DNA from: Bacteroidia bacterium
GTDB taxonomy: Bacteria > Bacteroidota > Bacteroidia > B-17B0 > Aurantibacillaceae
NCBI GenBank assembly: GCA_018000995.1
Contig: JAGNIU010000001.1
Location: forward strand, 310,001-374,000
DNA: 64,000 nt
Direction: 5' to 3'
How positions within the stretch are numbered: position 1 is the first letter of the stretch; every line of letters starts with the position of its first letter. Both the position numbers and the translations under genes were made by a program. Below, piece after piece: positions 4,837 to 5,888 of the stretch. Below the pieces are notes generated by a model, which was not told where the DNA came from, ran no database searches, and was given only the letters and a program-made list of their open reading frames with translations.

Positions 4837-5610
4837 TTAACTAAGTTGTCCAAAATAAATTTTTGTATCGTAATCTAATCGCACCATACCGTTTTCCTGG
4901 TAGCGCATAAATATTTTCTTTAAACAGTAAATCATAAATTCAAAATCCTTGTGCTCTTCATTTGGCATATAAGATGATGACAATACTCTTCCCTTTAAAC
5001 CTGCAAAATCCACATCCTGATAATTGTAAAAGCTTTTCTCTTTGTGATTCTGCTTACCAAAGAAATTATCAAACTGAGATGTTTCTTGTGTGTTTTTATG
5101 ATTAATCTCTTTATAATCCGTTCCGAACATTTGTAAGAAGTCTTCATAAACTTTTAAAAAGTCAGTTGTATCTGTTCTTCTGTCATTCCACATTAAAACA
5201 ACTTGTCCGTTTGGTTTCAATATACGCTTACATTCATTTTTGAATGTATCATTATTGAACCAATGAAAAGCCTGAGCGCAAACAATTACATCCACACTAT
5301 TATTTCCTAAACTTGTTGCTTCTGCTTTTCCATTTACAGAAACAAATAAATTTTTGTCGGAATAATTTTGCAAAATACGTTCCGCAGCTTCCCGCATGGG
5401 TTCGTTGGGTTCAACACCAAATACTTTGTAGCCATTTTTTAAAAACAATTCTGCTGAAATTCCTGTGCCTGAACCAATATCCGCAATAACAGCATTTTCA
5501 AAAATAATTTTTTCTGTTTTCAAAAAGTCAATTACCTCCGCAGGATAATGCGGACGATATTTGACGTAATTGTCAACTCTATCAGAAAATCTATTTGTTA
5601 TAACTGTCAT
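4837..5610 (-). CDS. Class I SAM-dependent methyltransferase
   Basis: A 257-residue protein with a Rossmann-type methyltransferase fold. Motif I is [13 protein letters not shown] near residue 43, an acidic residue follows in FGVEPNEPM, and [13 protein letters not shown] plus [12 protein letters not shown] match the Methyltransf_11 (UbiE/Tam-like) family. The substrate cannot be told from the sequence. It is the first gene after the SAM riboswitch and terminator and directly precedes metH (4 nt gap), so its expression should fall when SAM is abundant. That context suggests a link to methionine/SAM metabolism, but this is inference. Confidence 0.9.
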
Positions 5611-5611
5611 A

Positions 5612-5647
5612 AATAAAAAAATCCCTTACGTTTTACCGGAAGGGATT
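5612..5647 (-). terminator. Riboswitch expression-platform terminator
   Basis: On the minus strand, arms AATCCCTT (5647-5640) and AAGGGATT (5627-5620) enclose a 12-nt loop and are followed by a run of seven T's. The run ends a few bases before the methyltransferase ATG at 5610. Its position between the SAM aptamer and the gene fits a transcription-attenuating platform. Confidence 0.8.
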
Positions 5648-5683
5648 AGTTATATTTTGTTTTATTAAATACTAATTACTCCG

Positions 5684-5860
5684 GCTTATTTGCACCGCGT
5701 TAAACGCGATCACGATTTCCCACCTTCTGTTACAGTTGGTGAGTTGGTGAGTTATGAGTTAGCGAGTTTAACTCACTAATTCACAGATTCACTAATTCAC
5801 TAATTGAATCAGGGTTGGTAAGGTATCATAGGGCGTGTCCCTCCTCCTTTCGCAATAAGC
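5684..5860 (-). promoter_or_regulatory. SAM-I riboswitch (S-box) with extended P3
   Basis: On the minus strand the leader of the methyltransferase-metH operon carries the S-box core. P1 is formed by GCTTATTGC (5860-5852) and GCAAATAAGC (5693-5684). The P2/kink-turn segment reads AAAGGAGGAGGGAC, then GCCCTATGATACCTT and ACCAACC. The P3/P4 junction is AAGGTGGGAAATCG, and P4 is a CGCGTT/AACGCG hairpin (about 5696-5708). These match the class I SAM aptamer (GGAGGGAC, GCCC-UAUGA, AACC, AAGGTG), which binds S-adenosylmethionine and represses methionine genes. P3 spans about 5727-5812, roughly 86 nt, much longer than usual, and consists of repeat-like sequence. The metH target agrees with the assignment. 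Confidence 0.9.
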
Positions 5861-5880
5861 ATACTATAAAGAACTGGGTG

Positions 5881-5888
5881 TAAAGATA
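5881..5888 (-). promoter_or_regulatory. Probable -7 box for the metH operon leader
   Basis: TATCTTTA on the minus strand is a 7/8 match to the Bacteroidota -7 consensus TAnnTTTG and lies about 20 nt upstream of the first P1 base of the SAM aptamer, where a riboswitch leader should start. No good TTG -33 partner is evident. Confidence 0.5.

Follow-up and report, generated by a model that had tools for sequence, protein, structure and literature searches.

A long P3 arm built of short repeats in the metH SAM-I riboswitch of a Bacteroidia family

Introduction

Long, non-conserved and stable stem-loops inserted at fixed points are known in riboswitches in general (Barrick-Breaker review, PMC2258182). 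The closest described arms built of short repeats are found in cyanobacteria: heptanucleotide motifs (TDNGATT or NNTGAGT) make up the P6b arm of the group I intron in Nostoc tRNA-Leu(UAA), an arm that varies by replacement of the repeat class and by insertion and deletion of units (PMC4476775), while heterocystous cyanobacteria have STRR repeats in their RNase P RNA (Vioque 1997, as cited in PMC2858038); moreover, intergenic direct repeats of the heptamer TAACTGA are present in cyanobacteria, in Beggiatoaceae and in some Bacteroidetes, slippage having been proposed as their origin (PMC4679880). As for riboswitches, no description of a repeat-built arm was found in the open-licence literature; the statement of a preliminary description of the present locus, that no case of such an expansion had been described, holds to this extent and has to be narrowed by the repeat-built arms of cyanobacterial RNAs (PMC4476775; PMC2858038).

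The locus considered here lies in a window (the whole stretch of DNA analysed, 64,000 nucleotides) from the genome of an uncultured Bacteroidia lineage (3.61 Mb, 77 contigs). With the SAM-I family (RF00162) it shares the full match to the model, the helices P1-P4, metH downstream and a terminator platform, and it differs in that its P3 consists of 85 nt of tandem 8-nt units, whereas the other switch of the same genome has a short P3. With the Nostoc P6b arm it has in common that a structured RNA has a variable arm resting on heptanucleotide motifs, with class replacement and unit indels; in that case, however, the host is an intron, the motif classes are two and the organisms are cyanobacteria, whereas here a riboswitch of Bacteroidia carries many different units. 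The cyanobacterial STRR repeats are reportedly likewise short tandem repeats within a structured RNA gene, but the RNase P RNA of the window's family is devoid of such periodicity; and the TAACTGA repeats, although also 7 nt long and intergenic, are direct copies of one fixed heptamer rather than diverse hairpins. The riboswitch itself is thus ordinary; its repeat-built arm is old and not recent, and a DNA-level origin of the arm is testable.

The SAM-I aptamer and its expression platform

In a covariance-model search the aptamer exceeds the RF00162 gathering score (58.4 against 44.4 bits) and covers all model positions from 1 to 108, the alignment display omitting 76 nt that all fall within P3; the genome-wide search returned two matches, the window aptamer being the second (Table 1). 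By its match, its P1-P4 helices, its metH context and its terminator platform the element is a SAM-I riboswitch, with SAM binding predicted. The preliminary description, which had placed a SAM-I riboswitch upstream of a methyltransferase-metH unit, was correct as to the riboswitch and its context. One correction concerns the strand: the element is encoded by the minus strand, so that the highly stable structure obtained for the plus strand belongs to the antisense and overstates the stability of the RNA. Upstream of the riboswitch, TATCTTTA (window 5880-5888, minus strand) resembles the Bacteroidota -7 element; a TTTG at the customary -33 spacing from it was not found.

Table 1. Features of the metH riboswitch locus (window coordinates) and the second SAM-I riboswitch of the genome.
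Feature	Position	Strand	Evidence
SAM-I (S-box) riboswitch aptamer, complete	5683..5861	-	RF00162, 58.4 bits, E 6.2e-11
Extended P3 arm, 85 nt	5728..5812	-	TRF, lag-8 identity, hairpin z, arm-to-arm alignment
Expression platform, putative antiterminator halves	5636..5684	-	Stretch folds at -11.5 kcal/mol; P1 overlap read from sequence
Intrinsic terminator, AATCCCTTCCG / CGTAAGGGATT then T7	5612..5647	-	Fold -12.3 kcal/mol
Class I methyltransferase gene, 257 aa, first in regulated unit	4837..5610	-	ORF; Pfam Methyltransf_11, E 2.3e-18
metH, B12-dependent methionine synthase, 1245 aa	1116..4853	-	ORF; Pfam Met_synt_B12, S-methyl_trans, Pterin_bind, B12-binding
Second SAM-I riboswitch	L001 1501-1633		RF00162 match

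The halves of the antiterminator, CCGGAGTAATTAGT (5684-5671) and ACTAATCCCTTCCGG (5651-5637), are able to pair with each other; CCGGAGTAATTAGT, which directly follows P1, thereby offers the 5' side of the terminator an alternative partner, and the antiterminator, as read from the sequence, overlaps the 3' strand of P1. The ATG at 5610 is immediately 3' of the intrinsic terminator, and the presence of a matching terminator in all 50 orthologues examined makes the metH unit most likely a SAM-off transcription attenuator, if the usual S-box logic is applied to it. According to this logic, plentiful SAM would stabilise P1 and block the antiterminator, so that the terminator preceding the ATG would halt RNA polymerase, both the response to SAM and the direction of switching being predicted ones.

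Architecture of the P3 arm

The P3 segment (5728-5812) is bounded by CCAACC on one side and by GAAGGTGG on the other; its 5' arm is made of GTGAATTA-type units, its 3' arm of TAACTCAC-type units, and GAGTTAAACTC occupies the centre. Tandem 8-nt units were detected by TRF in both arms (5734-5768 and 5769-5805), and the lag-8 identity inside the arms (0.64, z = 8.2) was reached by none of 300 dinucleotide shuffles. Compared with shuffles, the energy of the hairpin has a z of -4.7 in the sense and of -8.5 in the antisense orientation, the sense arm folding more weakly (-22.2 against -40.2 kcal/mol). A long P3, built of repeats and folding on itself, had indeed been proposed in the preliminary description, and these values bear it out; as to the repeat unit, the degenerate tandem units are present, but their length is 8 nt in the window P3 and 7 nt in most relatives. 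An arm of such length may, as the preliminary description suggested, alter the kinetics of folding.

Distribution and age of the long arm

Almost the entire family has the long arm, and it recurs in several further families of the class. Within the genus, a long-arm metH S-box was found in six other genomes; within the family, 62 distinct long-arm S-boxes were extracted from 87 genomes, 61 of them with metH downstream and the remaining one cut by the end of its contig, and their P3 arms measure 81.8±7.2 nt (between 74 and 90 nt in 56 of the 62). Beyond the family, 70 low-scoring genomes from the class gave 81 SAM-I matches, of which 11 are at least 155 nt long; eight of the 12 arms extracted there show significant periodicity of 7 or 8 nt. 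The search at the level of the order gave nothing beyond the family, since the order comprises only this family, while a simple regular expression applied to named metH loci, too strict for the rest, retrieved the long arm from no more than three contigs, all of the same family. The arm, being shared across family and class, is therefore an old lineage feature, and a local, recent expansion of P3 is rejected by the genus, family and class searches alike. The preliminary description had taken the arm for a special expansion and had suggested that P3 lengths be compared in relatives; this comparison (82±7 nt in the 62 family S-boxes) went against it, nearly all metH S-boxes of the family having the long arm, which several other families in the class have too.

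Some members of genus g9 (G060 and G066) have a short P3 before metH. Their metH SAM-I switches (L128 and L130, respectively) resemble the second, metX-type switch described below, and a replacement of the riboswitch at metH is possible in these two genomes.

Periodicity within arms and turnover between species

The aptamer, the terminator, the orthology, length, periodicity and turnover of the arms, the lack of a G·U bias, the robustness to deletions and the other hairpins of the genome were all computed directly. Over the family, identity within arms is 0.529 at lag 7 and 0.528 at lag 14, against 0.31 after shuffling (sd 0.0065 and 0.009, respectively); identity is highest at lag 7 in 50 of 61 species and at lag 8 in seven others, and significant periodicity is absent from six of the 62 arms. 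This evidence bears on the simplest alternative, according to which P3 carries an ordinary variable insertion and the repeats arise incidentally from AT-rich, low-complexity sequence: the arms are AT-rich indeed, many having 15-30% G+C, but the sharp periodicity at 7 (and 14) goes far beyond what composition and dinucleotide shuffles produce, so that this explanation is strongly disfavoured and must be regarded as very improbable.

Between species the sequence of the arm has been turned over almost completely at a nearly constant length. Orthologous arms are 0.566 identical, against 0.522 for shuffled partners, and just 0.584 identical even where the aptamer cores are 90-95% identical; the median core identity between species is 0.85. 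Units that are similar within a species and dissimilar between species are the signature of concerted evolution or of replacement. Among individual pairs, G037 and G024 differ by a one-sided loss of 17 nt lying between repeats, G003 and G004 by paired gains or losses of units, and G021 and G038 by substitutions that fall only in the 5' arm and in the loop, the 3' arm being free of them. The features that characterise the P6b-type arm of Nostoc trnL were thus found, namely units of about 7 nt that pair across the stem, and gain or loss of units and replacement of motifs among relatives, by whatever mechanism these may come about. The rewriting might proceed by slippage of units, by conversion between units, by templated copying between the arms or by replacement with a similar hairpin.

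RNA pairing or a DNA process

Whether RNA pairing has been selected can be judged from transition-type mismatches, among which G·U should then be favoured over A·C; P4 of the same RNAs was used as the control for P3. Of these mismatches, P3 has 95 of the G·U and 133 of the A·C type, which matches the expectation from base composition (p 0.29), a comparison that presumes correct alignment of the arms, whose degenerate repeats align uncertainly and which share ancestry; those of P4, in the same RNAs, number 17 G·U and 3 A·C (p 0.0005), and the two ratios differ (Fisher p 0.0002). Since, in addition, the mean hairpin z of the arms is equal on the two strands (-3.4 and -3.5), the palindrome points to a strand-symmetric DNA process, and it looks as if it were made by DNA rather than maintained by pairing in the RNA.

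The opposite reading, that the arm is selected as RNA, would turn it into a rigid, rod-like helix of about 35-38 bp, the length of which would be important (for the order of folding, for shielding from RNases or for contact with a factor) while the sequence drifts by compensatory change. The near-constant length over 62 species (82±7 nt), a sense hairpin energy well under that of shuffles (mean z -3.4) and the precedent of the Barrick-Breaker review, in which variable insertions are stable stem-loops, speak in its favour; however, the arm shows no preference for G·U over A·C (95 to 133), unlike P4 (17 to 3), its antisense hairpins equal the sense ones in stability, self-similarity at 7 nt would not be maintained by compensatory drift alone, and the metH S-boxes of G060 and G066 have a short P3. 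On balance such selection on the RNA is unlikely to account for the arm, although it deserves to be taken seriously; the conserved length does argue for some selection on it, of a kind not required for a purely neutral appendage.

The account that we regard as probable, with due reserve, is that this metH SAM-I switch carries a tolerated P3 appendage, a DNA hairpin of about 80 nt made of 7-8-nt repeats and rewritten by events at the DNA level. The appendage would be directed away from the ligand pocket, and the hairpin would have resided in P3 since before the family diversified. As any unit pairs with any unit of the opposite arm, gains and losses leave the arm foldable, and the aptamer thereby survives the turnover. 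Indeed, after any 7-nt deletion, repeat arms retain 80% of their folding energy against 68% in structure-matched scrambled arms, their tolerance being above that of the scrambled arms in 59 of 61 cases; the repeat hairpin can re-register, and the aptamer therefore survives the loss of a unit.

A natural comparison is thus available within one RNA over dozens of species, P4 mismatches showing selection for RNA pairing and those of the neighbouring P3 none; this contrast permits testing how repeat dynamics at the DNA level build and maintain the arms of RNAs, a question left by the intron arms of cyanobacteria. For the modelling of SAM-I riboswitches it means that P3 tolerates almost any replacement, with its length fixed at about 80 nt.

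Dispersed hairpins of 7-8-nt repeats

In 854 kb sampled from the window's own genome, 14 hairpins made of 7-8-nt repeats were counted, mostly intergenic, against about 1.3 expected in second-order Markov sequence. They comprise a family of palindromes of about 75 nt built of 8-nt units (GCCACTAAA...), with at least six copies, and several singletons with other units. The copies of this family (GCCACTAAAGCACTAAA...TTTAGTGGGATTTTGTGTTTTAGTGGC), mostly intergenic, are at L136:15895, L146:8113, L326:14818, L330:7867, L336:9281 and L340:6276, and one more is at L353:2203 in genome G002. Single hairpins, each with a different unit, occur at L334:11722, L331:4283, L338:18700, L339:17264 and L340:10428 in the own genome, at L308:15902 in G010 and at L352:12006 in G002; they share the design of the P3 arms and lie in or adjoining intergenic DNA. 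Within the seven sources scanned (five from the own genome and two from relatives) no Rfam match other than tRNA was obtained, and these scattered hairpins merit a survey.

The window P3 itself has no second copy in its own genome (no match longer than about 20 nt), and a 17-nt pattern derived from it is, P3 itself aside, no more frequent there than its reversed control; the candidate explanation that it is a copy of a dispersed repeat of the own genome is accordingly rejected. Replacement by a dispersed element is unsupported in this genome for want of that second copy; similar elements do exist in G038, G021 and G010, where hairpins resembling the local P3 are present at other loci, some of them in short spacers between genes (operon spacers). 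At L255, L256, L259 and L261 (G038 and G010), heptad hairpins of AATTAAG/CTTAATT occupy short spacers and have sequences near to those of P3 arms in the same or in related species.

It might be supposed, from these operon-spacer hairpins and from the 75-nt palindrome family of the own genome with its six or more copies, that the arm is a mobile palindromic element (REP- or MITE-like) that has jumped repeatedly into P3. Such an element would be expected in multiple near-identical copies, and the window P3 is single in its genome; the base of the stem and the length are conserved between species, and no target duplication is seen by eye, all of which renders repeated insertion improbable. With the tolerated, rewritten hairpin as the preferred account, a broader interpretation may be put forward tentatively, as one that could well turn out otherwise: a widespread, strand-symmetric DNA process of Bacteroidia would make and rewrite hairpins of about 80 nt from 7-8-nt repeats, and one of these would have lodged, for the whole life of the family, in a riboswitch aptamer, its size and palindrome being kept without selection for RNA pairing and its repeat design allowing the RNA to withstand the churning.

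Other structured RNAs of the genome and of the family

The possibility that structured RNAs of the family generally carry repeat arms was considered and rejected: the RNase P RNAs (310-422 nt) give no lag-7 signal, remaining flat near 0.25, and the TPP riboswitches that pass the cut-off have the usual size (91-100 nt). The STRR repeats of cyanobacterial RNase P RNA are reportedly located in P12.

The P3 of the second SAM-I riboswitch of the genome is of ordinary short length. The gene about 540 nt 3' of this switch resembles, as judged by eye, a MetX-type acyltransferase. Between the switch and the main genes there is a short ORF that starts near 1647 and contains many cysteine codons; it may be leader peptide-like.
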